Shown in pieces: positions 26,836-32,937 of a stretch of 36,559 nucleotides of DNA (position 1 is its first letter; each line of letters starts with the position of its first letter). Below the pieces are notes generated by a model. The model made no database searches. It was given only the letters and a program-made list of their open reading frames with translations, and had not been told where the DNA came from. A program made the position numbers and the translations under genes. Origin of the DNA: Prevotella sp. (GTDB lineage Bacteria; Bacteroidota; Bacteroidia; Bacteroidales; Bacteroidaceae); assembly GCA_017458005.1 (NCBI GenBank), contig JAFTGH010000056.1:1-36559 (forward strand), written 5' to 3'.

Positions 26836-27630
26836 TCAACGCTTTATCTCTATATCGCGTTTGACATGATCACGAATCTTCGTCAGGTAAGCCTTCATCC
26901 CCTTGGCATCCTTCTGGTCGATGATCTCCAGCAACTCTTTCAGTTCTGTACGAATCTGACTGACCTGGTCGTGCGTATAGGGGTTGAAGAGGATTTCCTG
27001 TAACAGGTAGTCGTCCTCGTTCAGCACCCCCTTGGCAATCTTCATGTGACGCTTGAAGGTGGTACCTGGCGCATCCTGATGTTTCATGACAGCAGCGAAG
27101 ACAAAGGTTGACACAAACGGAATACTCAACGAGTAGGCAACCGTCTTATCATGCTCCTCAAAAGTATACTCATAGATATTCAGTCCCAACTTCTGGTAGA
27201 GGTCCTTGAAGAAGATGCGTCCCATGTAGTCGCCCTCGCTGATGATGATGGCGTTCTCCTCCGACAACTGGTTGAGGTTGGCGAAAGTAGGTCCGAACAT
27301 CGGGTGAGTAGAGGCATAGCGCATCCCCGTCGACTCGTAGAAGTCCTTCAAGCCCGTCTTCACTGAGGAGATATCACTGATGATACAGTCCTTCGGCAGA
27401 TAGGGTATCACCTCCTGGAAGGCTGGAATGGTATACTTCACGGTCACGGCATTCACCACCAATTCAGGGGCGAAGGCACGGATCTCCTCCAACTCCGTGA
27501 AGCGCTGGCAGTTATAGGTAAACCGCATGCGCTTCGGGTCTTTCTCAAAGACGGCGACCTCATGGTCGAAACTCAGCAGGTCGATGAAGAACGAGCCCAT
27601 CTTACCTGCGCCTAATACTAATATACGCAT
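26836..27630 (-). CDS. tyrA: Prephenate dehydrogenase
   Basis: It oxidises prephenate to 4-hydroxyphenylpyruvate with NAD(P)+, the tyrosine branch. The Rossmann motif GAGKMG is at 7-12, followed by a basic/acidic selector region (EKDPKRM), SDISSVKTGL (about 105-114), and STHPMFGPTF with the catalytic His of this family. Its length of 264 is short, typical of the stand-alone Bacteroidales form with no ACT domain or chorismate mutase fusion. Its ATG overlaps the stop of the upstream DAHP synthase/chorismate mutase gene by one base (TAATG). It is the last gene of the aromatic operon; no terminator is visible in the 4-base gap to the convergent gene. Confidence 0.93.
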   Translation of the reverse strand: MRILVLGAGKMGSFFIDLLSFDHEVAVFEKDPKRMRFTYNCQRFTELEEIRAFAPELVVNAVTVKYTIPAFQEVIPYLPKDCIISDISSVKTGLKDFYESTGMRYASTHPMFGPTFANLNQLSEENAIIISEGDYMGRIFFKDLYQKLGLNIYEYTFEEHDKTVAYSLSIPFVSTFVFAAVMKHQDAPGTTFKRHMKIAKGVLNEDDYLLQEILFNPYTHDQVSQIRTELKELLEIIDQKDAKGMKAYLTKIRDHVKRDIEIKR

Positions 27631-28694
27631 TATTTATTGATGATTTCAATTTGCTGACGGACACTCTCCTCATGGATGCTCTCAAAGACATGAGCGACAA
27701 ACTCAGGACCCATTCCTAACAGGGAGCCCTGTGCACCACGCTTGTCAAGAATCTCGTTGTAACGAGAGGTCTGCAGGACCGTCATGTTATGCTCTTTCTT
27801 ATACTGACCAATCTCACGACAAACACGCATACGCTTCGACAGCAAGTCCATCAACTGGTTGTCGAGTTCGTCAATCTGCTTACGCAGGGAGGTGATACCC
27901 TCCGTTGACGTGTTCTCGTCACGAATGACGAGCAAGGAGAGAATGTAGTCAAGCACGTCAGGAGTCACCTGCTGCTTGGCATCGCTCCATGCCTTGTCAG
28001 GATCGCAATGGCTCTCCACAATCAGACCGTCGAAGCCAAGGTCCATCGCCTGCTGGCACAAGGGGGCTATCAACTCTCTCCTACCTCCGATATGGCTGGG
28101 GTCGTTGATGATAGGCAACTCAGGAATACGACGATGCAACTCAATGGGAATCTGCCACATCGGCATGTTACGATAGATCTTCTTGTCGTAACTGGAGAAA
28201 CCACGATGGATGGCACCCAGACGCTTCACACCAGCCTGGTTCAGACGCTCCAACGCTCCAATCCATAACTCCAAGTCGGGATTGACGGGGTTCTTCACGA
28301 AGACAGGTACATCAACACCCTTCAAGGCATCGGCAAGTGCCTGCATGGCAAAGGGATTCGCAGAGGTACGGGCACCAACCCACAGGATATCGATGCCGTA
28401 TTTCAGACAGAGTTCGACATGCTCCGGTGTTGCCACCTCCGTAGACACGAGCATCTTCGTCTCCTCCTTGACCTGTTTCATCCAGACAAGGGCAGGCTCT
28501 CCATGTCCCTCGAAGCCTCCTGGCTTGGTACGTGGCTTCCACACACCAGCACGGAAGTTATGACAGCCAAACATGGCGAGTTGCTTCGCTGTTGTCATCA
28601 CTTGCTCCTCACTCTCAGCACTGCAGGGACCTGCAATGACGAAGGGGCGTTCATTGTCACTCGGTAATTTCAGGGGTTCTAATTCCAGTTCCAT
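27630..28694 (-). CDS. Bifunctional DAHP synthase / chorismate mutase
   Basis: The N-terminal part (1-260) is a DAHP synthase of the short class-I (beta) type: AGPCSAES at 21-28, NFRAGVWKPRTKPGGFEGHG, EVATPEHVELC, KNPVNPDLELW, and NDPSHIGGRRELI. It makes the first shikimate-pathway intermediate from PEP and erythrose 4-phosphate. The C-terminal 90 residues are an AroQ-type chorismate mutase (LRKQIDELDNQLMDLLSKRM, then REIGQYKKEHN and the late QQIEIINK helix). Fusion of the two lets the mutase act as an allosteric sensor of prephenate in related enzymes (family knowledge). It lies between the aminotransferase gene (35 bases) and tyrA (1-base overlap). Confidence 0.95.
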   Translation of the reverse strand: MELELEPLKLPSDNERPFVIAGPCSAESEEQVMTTAKQLAMFGCHNFRAGVWKPRTKPGGFEGHGEPALVWMKQVKEETKMLVSTEVATPEHVELCLKYGIDILWVGARTSANPFAMQALADALKGVDVPVFVKNPVNPDLELWIGALERLNQAGVKRLGAIHRGFSSYDKKIYRNMPMWQIPIELHRRIPELPIINDPSHIGGRRELIAPLCQQAMDLGFDGLIVESHCDPDKAWSDAKQQVTPDVLDYILSLLVIRDENTSTEGITSLRKQIDELDNQLMDLLSKRMRVCREIGQYKKEHNMTVLQTSRYNEILDKRGAQGSLLGMGPEFVAHVFESIHEESVRQQIEIINK

Positions 28695-28702
28695 AATTAT
28701 AT

Positions 28703-28738
28703 CTTTTTATTTTTTACCTTTTTACTTTTTTACTTTTC
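28703..28738. repeat. Imperfect 7-8 bp T-rich tandem repeat
   Basis: A residues interrupt a T-rich tract at 28709, 28716, 28724 and 28732, i.e. spacing 7, 8, 8 (TTTTTAC-like units). It covers the stop codon of the aminotransferase gene (28730-28732) and fills the gap before the next gene. Confidence 0.5.
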
Positions 28739-29902
28739 CAACGCCTTGATACGCTCAAGTGCCTGTTGTATCTTCTCTTCTTTCGCACAGAGGGAGATGC
28801 GGATATAACGCTCACCATTCGAGCCGAAGATAAAGCCTGGGGTGATGAACACACGAGCCTCATGGAGCACACGCTCCGTCAAGTCCTCCACATTCTCATA
28901 CTTAGCGGGAATCTTTCCCCAGAGGAACATACCCACCTGACTCTTGTCGTAGGTACAGCCCAGCACATCCATGATCTGCTCGGCATACTGGCGGCGACGG
29001 GCATAGGTCTCTATATTCGCCACACGATGCCACTCGTCGGTATTATCGTAAGCCTCTGCGGCAGCCAGTTGGATGCCACGGAAGGTACCACTCTCGATAT
29101 TCGACTGCACCTTCAGAATCCATGAGATAAACTCCGCATTCGAGGCACAGAGTCCCACACGCCATCCTGGCATGTTATGCGACTTCGACATGGAGTTGAA
29201 CTCGATGCAGCAGTCCTTGGCACCAGGTACCTGCAACAGCGACAGGTGCTCCTCATTCAGGATAAAGGAATAAGGGTTGTCGTTGACCACGACGATGTTA
29301 TGCTCCTTGGCAAACCTGACCAGTCGCTCATAGGTCTCACGACGGGCATTACCACCTGTCGGCATGTTGGGATAGTTGGTCCACATCAACTTCACCTTCG
29401 AGAGATCCATCTGCTCCAACTCGTCGAAGTCTGGTTGCCAACCATTGTCCTCACGCAGGTTATAGTTGACAATCTTCGCTCCCAGAATCTTACTCAGTGA
29501 GGTATAGGTGGGATAGCCAGGATTAGGCACCAGCACCTCATCGCCAGGATTGACAAAGGCGAGGGTGACATGAAGGATACCCTCCTTGGAGCCTATCAAA
29601 GGCAGCACCTCCGTCTTCGCGTCAAGGTCTACGTCATACCAACGCTTGTAGAAACGAGCCATCGCCTCACGCAACTCTGGAGTACCCATCGTAGGCTGGT
29701 AGCCATGGGCATTAGGCTGATGCGCCACCTCACACAGTTTCTCTATGGTCTTGTCTGAGGGCGGCATGTCAGGACTGCCGATGGCAAGACTGATGATGTC
29801 CTTGCCCTCCGCATTGAGTTGGGCGACCTCTTTCAGTTTACGACTGAAATAATATTCACTGACTAAACTAAGTCTGTCTGCAGGCTGTATCTCAGTAATC
29901 AT
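28730..29902 (-). CDS. PLP aminotransferase, class I/II (aromatic or prephenate/aspartate type)
   Basis: A fold-type I aminotransferase of 390 residues. Visible residues include Y129-P in PNPGYPTY, the D208 pair in VVVNDNPYS, K240 in FNSMSKSHNMPGWR (the PLP Schiff-base lysine) and a late Arg in RYIRISLC for the substrate carboxylate. Its place between pheA and the DAHP synthase/chorismate mutase gene argues for the final transamination to Phe and Tyr, or transamination of prephenate; sequence alone does not fix the substrate. Gaps to neighbours are 26 and 35 bases, each with a 7-bp type repeat. Confidence 0.92.
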   Translation of the reverse strand: MITEIQPADRLSLVSEYYFSRKLKEVAQLNAEGKDIISLAIGSPDMPPSDKTIEKLCEVAHQPNAHGYQPTMGTPELREAMARFYKRWYDVDLDAKTEVLPLIGSKEGILHVTLAFVNPGDEVLVPNPGYPTYTSLSKILGAKIVNYNLREDNGWQPDFDELEQMDLSKVKLMWTNYPNMPTGGNARRETYERLVRFAKEHNIVVVNDNPYSFILNEEHLSLLQVPGAKDCCIEFNSMSKSHNMPGWRVGLCASNAEFISWILKVQSNIESGTFRGIQLAAAEAYDNTDEWHRVANIETYARRRQYAEQIMDVLGCTYDKSQVGMFLWGKIPAKYENVEDLTERVLHEARVFITPGFIFGSNGERYIRISLCAKEEKIQQALERIKALEK

Positions 29903-29907
29903 AATTC

Positions 29908-29935
29908 CTAATTACTAATTTCTAATTACTAATTT
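29908..29935. repeat. Tandem 7-bp repeat CTAATTW, four units
   Basis: Units CTAATTA, CTAATTT, CTAATTA, CTAATTT fill the gap before the aminotransferase gene and include the pheA stop codon (29929-29931). Confidence 0.9.
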
Positions 29936-30771
29936 GTTTGTTTTCCGTCTTTGTATTCACCTAATATCTTGAAGTCCTTGGTCAAGGGGATGATGGCGTC
30001 TATCGACTGGCGATAGCGGGTCAGGTCGTCGTACATCACATCGACATAGAACAAATACTCCCACTCCCGTCCGATAATCGGCAGCGACTGGATCTTCGTC
30101 AGGTTGATCTTATAGAAGGAGAGGATGGCAAGGACATGCGACAGACTACCCTCCTCGTGGGGCAGTGAGAAGACGATACTCGCCTTGTTTGCCTCCGTCA
30201 ACGGACGGAGCAGGTCTGCCTTGTTGGGATTCGAGACCACGAGGAAGCGGGTGAAGTTATGCTTGTTATCCTCGATGTGGTCCTCCAGTACCTTCAGTCC
30301 ATAGAGTCTCGCAGCCTCCGCATGACAGATGGCAGCCCACCCTTTCTTCTGTCCCTCGGCAATCATCTTGGCACTACCTGCCGTATCCTCAGCCTCCACA
30401 TTCTTCATCGTGGGATGCTGGGCAAGGAAGTCACGACACTGCATGAGTGCCACAGGATGGGAATGAATCTCCGTAATGGTGTCCCAATCATCTTCGGGCA
30501 GACAACAGATACAGTGGGAGATATGCAGTTTATGCTCTCCCACGATGGTGGTACCAGAGTCACGCAACAACTCGTAGTTATGCAGCAACGATCCCGCAAT
30601 AGTATTCTCAATGGCGAGCATACCTATTGTCGTGGGGTCTTGCTTGATGTGCTGGAACACCTGCTCGAAGGTAGCGCAGCAGATCAGTTGTATCTGCTCA
30701 TCCTCGAAAAACAGATGCGCTGCGATGTCGTGGAATGACCCGACCAGTCCTTGTATTGCTATTCTCTTCAT
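29929..30771 (-). CDS. pheA: Prephenate dehydratase
   Basis: It converts prephenate to phenylpyruvate. Motifs: AIQGLVGSFHDIAA at the start, LAIENTIAGSL at 52-62, AEDTAGSAKMIAEG (about 127-140) and NFTRF at 172-176, all normal for the PDT domain. The C-terminal ACT domain (about 197-275) has GSL at 208-210 in place of the usual GAL and IQSLP at 227-231 where feedback-inhibited enzymes carry IESRP. Phe feedback may therefore be altered (inference). First structural gene of the aromatic operon, behind an attenuator and a Tyr/Phe-rich leader peptide. It lacks the chorismate mutase domain, which sits in the DAHP synthase fusion. Confidence 0.95.
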   Translation of the reverse strand: MKRIAIQGLVGSFHDIAAHLFFEDEQIQLICCATFEQVFQHIKQDPTTIGMLAIENTIAGSLLHNYELLRDSGTTIVGEHKLHISHCICCLPEDDWDTITEIHSHPVALMQCRDFLAQHPTMKNVEAEDTAGSAKMIAEGQKKGWAAICHAEAARLYGLKVLEDHIEDNKHNFTRFLVVSNPNKADLLRPLTEANKASIVFSLPHEEGSLSHVLAILSFYKINLTKIQSLPIIGREWEYLFYVDVMYDDLTRYRQSIDAIIPLTKDFKILGEYKDGKQTN

Positions 30772-30780
30772 ATCTTCATT

Positions 30781-30885
30781 ATTTAAAAAGAAACTCCGCT
30801 TTCACTTGTTCTGTGAAGCGGAGCCTTATTTCATTTCTTCAATCTTTCAATTTTTATTTCTTACATACGACTTCCCGCTTCACAG
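30781..30885 (-). promoter_or_regulatory. Attenuator: terminator and competing antiterminator before pheA
   Basis: On the minus strand three segments compete. Segment 30875-30885 (CTGTGAAGCGG, within the leader peptide gene) can pair with 30811-30821 to form an 11-bp antiterminator. Alternatively 30813-30823 pairs with 30794-30805 to form the terminator stem (one bulged base), which is followed by TTTCTTTTTAAAT (30781-30793) and then the pheA ATG at 30771. A ribosome stalled on the Tyr/Phe codons just upstream would leave the antiterminator free; a ribosome reaching the leader stop would cover segment 30875-30885. The mechanism is known for amino acid operons; its use here is inferred from the sequence. 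Confidence 0.88.
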
Positions 30886-30938
30886 TTCTCTGCAAAGTAA
30901 AAATAAAAGCCGTAAAAGTAAGCGTTTCTATTCAACAT
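30861..30938 (-). CDS. Leader peptide for aromatic amino acid attenuation, 25 aa
   Basis: ATG at 30936-30938, TAA at 30861-30863, beginning MLNRNAYFYGFYFYFA and ending GSRM. Residues 7-15 hold four Tyr and four Phe interrupted by one Gly, an extreme bias in a 25-codon frame. It lies about 25 bases after the predicted transcription start and immediately before the terminator/antiterminator pair, in the same direction as pheA. This is the classical architecture of the Trp, His and Phe operon leaders. Both Tyr and Phe codons are present, matching an operon that makes both amino acids. Confidence 0.92.
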   Translation of the reverse strand: MLNRNAYFYGFYFYFAENCEAGSRM

Positions 30939-30966
30939 TGTTCTATCGTTTTTGTCTTATTGGGTG

Positions 30967-30998
30967 CAAAATTATAATATTTTCCGTAATTACACAAA
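30967..30998 (-). promoter_or_regulatory. Promoter of the aromatic amino acid operon
   Basis: TTTG (30995-30998), 20 bases, TAATTTTG (30967-30974) on the minus strand; start expected near 30961, giving a leader transcript of about 190 bases before pheA. Confidence 0.8.
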
Positions 30999-31001
30999 CA
31001 T

Positions 31002-31036
31002 TTTGAAAGAAAAATCGAAAAAAAGTTATAATTTTG
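31002..31036 (+). promoter_or_regulatory. Promoter of the P-type ATPase gene
   Basis: TAATTTTG at 31029-31036, with TTTG at 31002-31005 (23-base spacing, longer than usual). The box ends 8 bases before the ATG at 31045, so the leader is only a few bases. Back-to-back with the pheA promoter. Confidence 0.55.
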
Positions 31037-31044
31037 CATTTGTT

Positions 31045-32937
31045 ATGGAGAAAAAGACATTTGCCGTATTAGGAATGATGTGCGCGGGATGCGCCGCCAA
31101 TGTGGAGAAGCGACTCAACCAGACAGAGGGAGTCGTCTCTGCCGCAGTCAACCTCCCTGCCCGTACGGCTATGATAGAATACGACGAGCAAATCACGTCG
31201 CCAGAGCAGATGAAAGCGGCTCTTGCTGATATCGGCTACGACATGGTGGTGGAGGAAGACCGTAATGTGGAGGCGATAGAGCGACAGACCTATAAGAGCC
31301 TGCGCAACAAGGTCATCGTCTCATGGGTCTTCGCCCTGCTGGTGATGGCTATCTCGATGGGATATATTAAAATAGGTACACGCGATACGGCAAACCAGAC
31401 GATGCTGATTCTCTCCCTTTTGAATATCCTGTATTGTGGCAGACAATTCTATGTGAACGCTGTGCGACAGTTGTTGCATGCCTCCGCGAATATGGACACC
31501 TTGGTAGCACTCTCCACGGGCATCTCTTTCCTCTTCAGTGCGTTCAACACGTTCTGGGGCGAGTCATATTGGGGTGCGCAGGGAATGGAATGGCACACCT
31601 ATTTCGATGCCTCCGTGATGATTATCACCTTCGTGCTTACAGGCAGACTGATGGAGGAGCGTGCCAAGCACGGTACCGCCTCCGCCATCCGTGCTTTGAT
31701 GGGACTGACTCCTAAGACGGCACATATGATAGACACTGGCGACGTGGTGGAGGTTCCCATCTCAGCCATCCAGCCAGGTGATACGATAGAGGTGCGCCCT
31801 GGTGAGAAAATTCCCGTGGACGGTCGAGTGGTAGGCGATGGCATCGCCCGCATCGACGAGTCGGCAATGACGGGAGAGTCGGTCGCTGTAGAGAAGCATG
31901 CTGGCGACAAGGTGCTTGCCGGAACGATAGTTCGTGAGGGCACTTTCCGTTTCAAGGCGGAGGAGGTCGGACAGAAGACCGTCCTCGCCAATATGATACG
32001 AATGGTGCAGGAGGCACAGGGGTCGAAGGCACCCGTCCAGCGCATCGTCGACAAGATAGCCCTCGTCTTCGTCCCCACCGTAGGAGGTATTGCCCTGTTG
32101 ACATTCCTCGCCTGGTATCTGATAGGAGGTCATGCATACCTGCCCCAGGCGATTCTCTCCGCAGTCAGTGTCTTAGTGATTGCCTGTCCCTGTGCCATGG
32201 GACTAGCCACTCCGACGGCATTGATGGTGGGTATCGGTAAGGCAGCGGAGAAAAACATCCTCATCAAAGACGCTACCGCCTTGGAGGAGATTCGCCATAT
32301 CAATGCGATGGTGATTGACAAAACAGGTACCCTCACCCAACCTACCACACCTACCTCCCCTACACCCCCTACCACACCTACCGAGACCCTCAAGCCCCAC
32401 GCTCAAGAGGCGATGCAACAGTTGCAGGACATGGGTATCGAGGTCTATATGATGAGTGGCGATAAAGAGGAGCGTGCCGCTCTGATCGCCCAAGAAGCCC
32501 ATATCGCCCATTATCGCTCAGAGGTGAAGCCCCAAGACAAGGAGGACTTGGTGCGTGACCTACAGACACAAGGTAAACAGGTGGCAATGGTGGGCGACGG
32601 TATCAACGACTCACAGGCACTTGCTGCCGCTGACGTCAGCATTGCGATGGGCAAAGGTACCGATGTGGCGATGGATGTCGCACAAGTCACGCTGATGGGC
32701 TCCGACCTCCGTCGTATTCCAGAGGCTATCAGTCTGTCGAAGCAAACCGTCAATATGATTCACCAGAACCTGTTCTGGGCATTCATCTATAATATCATCT
32801 GTATACCACTGGCGGCAGGACTCCCCTACCTCATCGGACTCTCGTGGCAGATCACACCCATGTGGGCTTCCGCTCTGATGGCGTTCTCCAGTGTCAGCGT
32901 GGTACTGAATAGTCTGAGGTTAAAATTGAAAAGTTGA
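31045..32937 (+). CDS. Copper-type P1B ATPase lacking the nucleotide-binding domain, 630 aa
   Basis: The ATG at 31045 gives an N-terminal heavy-metal domain with C13-A-G-C16 (GMMCAGCAANVEKRL). The membrane and catalytic parts are otherwise complete: TGES at 276-279, C381-P-C383 (copper-type metal site), phosphorylated D425 in DKTGTLT, GD at 472-473 and GDGIND at 517-522. Between D425 and D473 there are only about 47 residues, made of a Pro/Thr-rich stretch (PTTPTSPTPPTTPTET) plus the P-domain helix. Canonical enzymes carry well over 100 more residues here, including the ATP-binding N-domain with its HP motif. Similar shortened proteins occur in Bacteroidales, so this is probably a family feature rather than a fresh deletion. 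ATP use needs testing. AI-2E permease gene follows after 4 bases. Confidence 0.93.
   Translation: MEKKTFAVLGMMCAGCAANVEKRLNQTEGVVSAAVNLPARTAMIEYDEQITSPEQMKAALADIGYDMVVEEDRNVEAIERQTYKSLRNKVIVSWVFALLVMAISMGYIKIGTRDTANQTMLILSLLNILYCGRQFYVNAVRQLLHASANMDTLVALSTGISFLFSAFNTFWGESYWGAQGMEWHTYFDASVMIITFVLTGRLMEERAKHGTASAIRALMGLTPKTAHMIDTGDVVEVPISAIQPGDTIEVRPGEKIPVDGRVVGDGIARIDESAMTGESVAVEKHAGDKVLAGTIVREGTFRFKAEEVGQKTVLANMIRMVQEAQGSKAPVQRIVDKIALVFVPTVGGIALLTFLAWYLIGGHAYLPQAILSAVSVLVIACPCAMGLATPTALMVGIGKAAEKNILIKDATALEEIRHINAMVIDKTGTLTQPTTPTSPTPPTTPTETLKPHAQEAMQQLQDMGIEVYMMSGDKEERAALIAQEAHIAHYRSEVKPQDKEDLVRDLQTQGKQVAMVGDGINDSQALAAADVSIAMGKGTDVAMDVAQVTLMGSDLRRIPEAISLSKQTVNMIHQNLFWAFIYNIICIPLAAGLPYLIGLSWQITPMWASALMAFSSVSVVLNSLRLKLKS
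32342..32382 (+). repeat. 27-bp direct repeat in the ATPase linker
   Basis: The sequence CTACCACACCTACC occurs at 32342-32355 and 32369-32382, with related CCTAC motifs between them. It encodes the Pro/Thr linker that replaces the N-domain. Confidence 0.8.

Follow-up and report, generated by a model that had tools for sequence, protein, structure and literature searches.

The pheA operon of this Prevotella sp. is very probably preceded by a ribosome-mediated transcription attenuator that would read charged tRNA-Tyr and charged tRNA-Phe. This interpretation draws on a short frame and its codons, on competing hairpins, on their spacing and conservation, and on a match between leader codons and operon content, all of which can be read in the DNA examined, namely the 36,559-nucleotide stretch referred to as the window and the genomes compared with it. 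The predicted mechanism is a familiar one that has barely been described in this phylum; what is new is its breadth, the way leader codons fit the genes of operons that have split, and the fixed spacing.

Four genes follow the leader in the order pheA, aminotransferase, DAHP synthase/chorismate mutase fusion (DAHPS/CM), and tyrA, all in one direction and with short gaps or overlap (Table 1). The pheA gene is 98% identical over 280 residues to that of a rumen-associated Prevotella. NCBIfam prephenate dehydrogenase models match tyrA below their cut-off, and the best NCBIfam match of the aminotransferase, LL-diaminopimelate aminotransferase, is also below cut-off; a probable aromatic role is assigned to the aminotransferase from its place in the operon. 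A copper-type P-type ATPase gene (31003-32937, plus strand) is divergent from the leader and pheA and has the intergenic region in common with them. A generic sigma-70 scan places a promoter-like site for the plus side in that same region, at 31003-31032.

Table 1. Features of the putative attenuator and of the operon behind it, in window coordinates
Feature	Positions	Strand	Details
Promoter, Bacteroidetes type	30967..30998	minus	TTTG 30998-30995, 20 nt, TAATTTTG 30974-30967 (TAnnTTTG)
Leader peptide frame, 25 codons	30861..30938	minus	MLNRNAYFYGFYFYFAENCEAGSRM, then stop; ATG start; read from sequence
Aromatic codon run YFYGFYFYF (putative sensor)	30894..30920	minus	4 Tyr and 4 Phe in 9 codons
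Segment 1	30890..30897	minus	CTTTGCAG; pairs with 30885-30878; end of aromatic run
Segment 2, antiterminator 5' strand	30875..30885	minus	CTGTGAAGCGG; inside leader frame
Segment 3	30811..30823	minus	Terminator 5' arm 30823-30813 plus complement of segment 2, CCGCTTCACAG, 30821-30811
Segment 4	30785..30805	minus	Terminator 3' arm 30805-30794 plus T tract TTTCTTTTT, 30793-30785
pheA, prephenate dehydratase	29929..30771	minus	Pfam PF00800, E 4.8e-57; ATG at 30771
Class I/II aminotransferase, probably aromatic	28730..29902	minus	Pfam PF00155
DAHP synthase/chorismate mutase fusion	27630..28694	minus	Pfam PF00793 and PF01817
tyrA, prephenate dehydrogenase	26836..27630	minus	Pfam PF02153, E 3.9e-09

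The sequence-only reading of this region had described a promoter followed by a 25-codon frame with four Tyr and four Phe in nine codons, and exactly these elements are found on the minus strand between 30998 and 30861. The sigma-70 scan reported no promoter at the leader because it covers only promoters of the E. coli type. The upstream TTTG and its spacing are taken here to be part of a Bacteroidetes promoter. Of 243 leader loci, 212 have TAnnTTTG in the 70 nt ahead of the frame, compared with 46 of 1,215 shuffled sequences, and the median distance from TTTG to ATG at the leader loci is 28 nt. In PMC9723704, TAnnTTTG is given as the -7 box of sigma-A in Flavobacterium.

Segment 2 starts 9 nt past the last aromatic codon and is the perfect complement of a sequence that makes up most of the terminator 5' arm. 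An 11-base segment within the frame had been described as complementary to the arm itself; the perfect complement inside the frame is there, and it is the target that needs correction, being shifted 2 nt from the arm with 9 of 11 bases in common. The T tract is directly behind the terminator 3' arm, and 13 nt separate its end from the pheA start, in keeping with the earlier description of a terminator ending just before pheA. Segment 2 can pair partly with segment 1 or fully with its complement in segment 3, which can also pair with segment 4. Computed energies in the window are -20.9 for the 2:3 duplex and -17.7 for 3:4, and the fold of the leader RNA is 4.4 standard deviations below 200 dinucleotide shuffles, none of which was as low (0/200).

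In the proposed mechanism, transcription would start just downstream of 30967 and a ribosome would begin translating the 25-codon leader. With ample Tyr and Phe the ribosome would cross the aromatic run and cover segment 2, partly at codon 16 and wholly by codon 19. Segments 3 and 4 would then form the terminator, and RNA polymerase would stop about 13 nt before pheA. When Tyr or Phe is short, the ribosome would stall in the run, and its leading edge would extend no further than the start of segment 2 even from the final aromatic codon. Segment 2, left free, would capture segment 3, no terminator would form, and pheA, the aminotransferase gene, DAHPS/CM, and tyrA would be transcribed. In Prevotella the 1:2 hairpin, which includes the Phe15 and Ala16 codons together with the final base of Tyr14, may favor termination when no ribosome is present. 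Translation of the leader, stalling, termination in the cell, and the response to Tyr and Phe are what we infer from the arrangement of these elements.

To evaluate how widely this arrangement is conserved, 267 pheA loci were compared: 80 from named close relatives, 87 from the family (the window's own included), 60 from the order, 20 from the class, which we take to be Bacteroidia from where Prevotella belongs, and 20 from the rest of the phylum. The 80 named contigs are the best 80 of 512 relatives and are mostly labeled Prevotella or Prevotellaceae. Within the family, 121 genomes were searched and 98 had a pheA match; the 11 that do not contribute to the 87 loci were 2 partial matches and 9 distant ones (29-32% identity). 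In the order, 247 genomes were searched and 111 matched, 107 of them outside the family, and 60 were used, taken down the list with some skipped. The 20 loci each for the class and for the rest of the phylum are a non-random choice among the matches listed of 255 matching genomes. Locus counts are not independent, because some named loci and other genomes may be the same or near-identical species; the leaders of L002 and L049 are identical, as are those of L149 and L150.

A leader was called when the 500 nt upstream of pheA had a short frame in which 10 codons included 6 or more aromatic residues. Such a frame is found at 243 of the 267 loci: 78/80 among the named close relatives, 83/87 in the family, 58/60 in the order, 19/20 in the class, and 5/20 outside the class. 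It is present in 35/35 families of the order and 6/6 families of the class that were sampled. Three loci counted as leaderless (L029, L069, and L072) are cut by contig ends. At the remaining 15 of 20 loci outside the class, neither a leader nor the operon accompanies pheA. One genome of 1.2 million bases (L180) has kept the four-gene operon with no recognizable leader, and there is no leader directly before pheA at L245. At the latter locus an open stretch that by eye resembles the end of aroA abuts pheA, and a leader might sit further upstream.

Shuffled sequence and the regions ahead of other genes hardly ever have such a frame. With a stricter threshold of at least 7 aromatic codons in 10 and a distance of no more than 300 nt, they were found at 232 of 263 pheA loci (the 267 minus 4 with less than 300 nt upstream) and in none of 1,052 shuffled sequences. 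Upstream regions of other long open reading frames at 160 loci gave 5 hits in 827, four of which were the pheA leader itself, picked up through a different start codon. Lowering the threshold to 6 at the same distance gave 240/263 for pheA, 5/1052 for shuffles, and 11/827 for the other upstream regions. These results bear out the earlier suggestion of a Tyr/Phe attenuator to the extent that its predicted elements are conserved far beyond the genus and behave in comparison as would be expected.

Conservation of a start codon and an open frame would also be expected if the frame encoded a functional small peptide and the hairpin were an ordinary terminator, or if the leader were constitutive. 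However, it is mainly the aromatic content that is kept rather than the sequence, with Tyr and Phe exchanging for each other, and the peptide ranges from 15 to 41 residues among the leaders listed, with its stop codon 9 to 75 nt past the run. In Prevotella it is the pairing RNA segment that specifies the amino acids following the run, and the codons of the leaders follow operon content, as detailed below. A functional peptide is accordingly considered extremely unlikely.

A different possibility is that the RNA is a ligand-binding riboswitch, or another leader that senses a protein or an RNA, with the aromatic run as a by-product of U-rich RNA. The strong competing structures and the U-rich runs are in line with this. 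Yet shuffling the same U-rich sequence does not generate such frames (0/1052 at 7 in 10), no Rfam family matches at its gathering score, and by eye there is no constant RNA core across families beyond the pairing strands. In 162 distinct aromatic runs, TTT, TAC, TAT, and TTC account for 1,341 of 1,551 codons. Base placement within the runs also speaks against a riboswitch: A is mostly at codon position 2 (626 versus 68 and 53 at the others) and C mostly at position 3 (592 versus 10 and 82), a bias that is partly built in because the runs were chosen as aromatic and that is therefore not counted as independent proof. Of the alternatives weighed here, a riboswitch or comparable sensor has the least chance of being correct. 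Trp codons also occur in or beside the aromatic run in several lineages (such as L042, L205, L215, and L237), with 14 TGG among the 1,551 codons, and possibly indicate added sensing of Trp.

If the attenuator interpretation is correct, a terminator should accompany the leaders. One of -10 kcal/mol or better was found between run and pheA for 228 of 243 leaders, compared with 7 of 1,215 shuffles; the scan requires TTTT, and 15 of the 243 leaders had no terminator of -10. This distribution, together with the T tract right behind the hairpin, bears on whether the leader might act mainly on translation or mRNA stability rather than on termination, as erm-type leaders do. A hairpin and T tract that end only 13 nt before the pheA start would suit such an effect, but the terminator-like features make it a very unlikely main mode of action, if a somewhat less remote one than a functional peptide.

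The antiterminator pairing is also stronger than chance. A duplex of -12 or better was found in 197 of 228 loci, versus 446 of 4,560 dinucleotide shuffles and 104 of 228 swaps of strands between loci. In a set of 70 loci from beyond the family, with roughly one locus for each genus, the cognate strands paired better than the mean of swapped strands in 63 (Wilcoxon p 7e-12); class and phylum loci were labeled singly in this test, so that L246 and L247, which belong to one genus, could both count. Over 185 distinct loci the advantage of cognate strands gave p 2e-27, uncorrected for kinship. Segment 2 and the arm change together, as in AAGGTGGGA/TCCCACCTT in L169, GAGCAGG/CCTGCTC in L191, and GACCGGGA/TCCCGGTC in L208. 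The cognate strand beats 95% of swaps in only 78 of the 185 distinct loci because many arms have a similar CCCGC-like core.

The sequence-only reading had proposed an alignment across relatives as a check, looking for a conserved frame and for compensatory changes in the stems. The frame is conserved, as described above, and changes on both sides are seen in two of the three stems. In an alignment of 68 Prevotella-type leaders, 98.5% of cells are paired in stem 1:2, with one pair exchanged between A-U and G-C on both sides in 31 sequences, and 99.3% in stem 3:4, where both partners have changed in two pairs, in 24 and 32 sequences respectively. For both stems the cell counts and the covariation score exceed all 500 shuffles, and the number of pairs changed on both sides and the number of pair types do not exceed shuffles. 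The support expected from compensatory changes does not extend to stem 2:3, which is nearly invariant in Prevotella (92.5%) and has no covariation; because it hardly varies, covariation there is uninformative, and the cross-locus swap tests were used instead. As a class-wide feature, the 1:2 stem was rejected, since it was found in 86 of 185 loci versus 359 of 925 shuffles, which is not above chance. The layout had also been called a complete one of Trp-operon style. All of the named elements are indeed present, with a 1:2 stem in Prevotella, and it is this stem that is not above chance across the class.

The spacing between codons and RNA strands is consistent with a ribosome as the sensor. 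The gap between the last aromatic codon and the start of segment 2 is 6 to 15 nt at 165 of 185 distinct loci, compared with 113 of 925 shuffled sequences, and its median over 228 loci is 10 nt. This spacing holds regardless of whether the stop codon, at its variable distance past the run, falls before or behind segment 2. Consequences for pairing were evaluated with a stall model in which the ribosome, taken to be as large as that of E. coli, covers the RNA as far as 12 nt from the A-site codon's first base. In this model the 2:3 helix forms at all 228 loci when the ribosome sits on the final aromatic codon. It stays free at 218 of the 228 for a ribosome at any aromatic codon in the run, and it forms at 5 of the 228 when the ribosome has reached the stop codon. 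The figures for aromatic codons are partly built in because segment 2 was picked by its pairing, which applies less to the spacing and to the behavior at the stop codon. In the window, the model gives a 2:3 helix that keeps 11 pairs for codons up to 14 in the A site, drops to 10 pairs when the last Phe (codon 15) is there and to 7 at codon 16, and is gone once codon 19 is reached. Judged by sequence and geometry, the antiterminator strand competes for the terminator 5' arm and is placed so that it would be exposed only when a ribosome stalls.

Operons that have come apart serve as a natural experiment on the amino acids sensed by each leader. An operon was considered joint if the fetched sequence had any of the aminotransferase, DAHPS/CM, or tyrA genes downstream of pheA and on its strand, and the densest 10 residues were taken as the leader core. 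The core has 2 or more Tyr in every one of the 237 leaders of joint operons. In the six leaders before pheA alone (L019, L172, L185, L190, L212, and L216, from five families) the core has 0 or 1 Tyr without exception (6/6; Fisher p 4e-12 for joint versus alone, kinship not corrected).

The remainder of the split operon was then searched for in those six genomes and in four with a leaderless lone pheA from the order or family (L151, L155, L156, and L189). The DAHP synthase part has its own Tyr/Phe-rich leader in 9 of these 10 genomes (L271, L272, L273, L274, L276, L282, L283, L284, and L285), and terminators were found behind 8 of the 9, in a count made without a shuffle control. No leader precedes the DAHPS operon in the tenth genome (G331), where the contig starts 381 nt upstream. 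One genome has three attenuator-like leaders in a single stretch of about 8 kb (L282:1480-9720, minus strand): a Phe-rich one (FFSNFFFVF) before pheA, a Trp-rich one (FWWW) before seven trp genes (trpB-E-G-D-C-F-A by Pfam), and a Tyr-rich one (YVYSYYYF) before the aminotransferase gene and DAHPS/CM, with a terminator of about -18 after each. At L285, tandem aromatic-rich short frames, MVNFEFYYGFYYYLD and MTTYTFSYFYYWFRTP, each followed by a stop codon, are located at 2316 and 2450 (minus strand) before an aminotransferase gene.

These patterns suggest that modular ribosome-read attenuators govern the aromatic pathway of the class and that their codons are rewritten when the operon breaks up. 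Tyr and Phe codons would be read before joint operons, Phe before a lone pheA, mostly Tyr before the DAHPS-tyrA part, and Trp before the trp genes, with up to three leaders in a row, as in L282, and with the antiterminator strand kept at a fixed distance of about 10 nt from the last sensing codon, as if by a ruler. We consider this generalization likely, with less confidence than the attenuator before the pheA operon itself.

Further candidate leaders are present in the genome from which the window was taken, outside the window. A Trp leader, MNAWWWRNSRLK followed by a stop codon, with a terminator of -20.6 kcal/mol, is located at 119-157 of L287 (G000 contig C27); it precedes a gene that looks by eye like trpB, upstream of trpE. 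A His leader was sought before hisG, and there is none directly upstream. A frame with 6 His in 10 residues, MPWHHAHGWHHHYRRQG and a stop codon, lies about 1 kb upstream of hisG (L288:358, plus strand).

The closest known counterpart of the predicted attenuator is pheL-pheA of enterobacteria (Rfam Phe_leader, RF01859), which likewise has an aromatic-rich leader peptide, alternative hairpins, and a terminator directly before pheA. pheL has Phe rather than Tyr codons and controls pheA alone, whereas the window leader would read both Tyr and Phe and precedes four genes. RF01859 scores 19.1 bits on the window leader over its full model length, short of its gathering score of 55; nothing in the window matches Rfam at the gathering threshold, and the leader itself has sub-threshold matches only. 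As in trpL-type attenuators, a stalled ribosome would choose between antiterminator and terminator, a choice predicted here from sequence. In contrast to the trpL type, the wider class has no 1:2 protector stem above chance, and the stop codon can either precede or follow segment 2. Leaders that sense several amino acids are known from the thr and ilv operons (thrL and ilvL). The Bacteroid-trp RNA (RF01692), presumably linked to Trp attenuation, is also a candidate cis-regulatory RNA of Bacteroidetes and differs in that it has no match in this genome or in the window. It is given as such a candidate in Table 1 of PMC2864571.

The attenuator idea was partly anticipated within the phylum. According to the accessible text of PMC9723704 (2021), conserved structured 5' elements without an Rfam match precede pheA and hisG in Flavobacterium psychrophilum, are conserved in other Flavobacteriaceae, and provide "strong clues" for leader-peptide attenuation of amino acid operons. 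That element belongs to the same phylum and the same gene; Tyr/Phe codons, alternative stems, and operon logic are not named in the accessible text. Short frames reminiscent of leader peptides have been noted in 5' untranslated regions of B. thetaiotaomicron (PMC7366714). PMC2965389 (2010) names Proteobacteria and Actinobacteria as the only groups in which such systems had until then been demonstrated, and contributes a case from Firmicutes. PMC4833913 gives counts of leader genes lying near structural genes, in Bacteroidetes among other phyla, and favors reinitiation; the distances given there are shorter than that between the window leader and pheA. The sequence-only reading knew of no described Tyr/Phe attenuator in Bacteroidales, and none was found in the open literature searched; the Flavobacterium pheA element remains the partial precedent.

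The attenuator proposed here provides a concrete, testable form of control over aromatic amino acid synthesis in gut and rumen Bacteroidetes, and it turns earlier hints of leader-peptide attenuation in the phylum into a detailed case that appears to hold across a class. Because the spacing is fixed, the coupling of transcription to translation in Bacteroidetes can be put to a test. If the leaders are indeed a modular family, transcription and translation would have to be coupled closely enough across the class for leader attenuation to operate.
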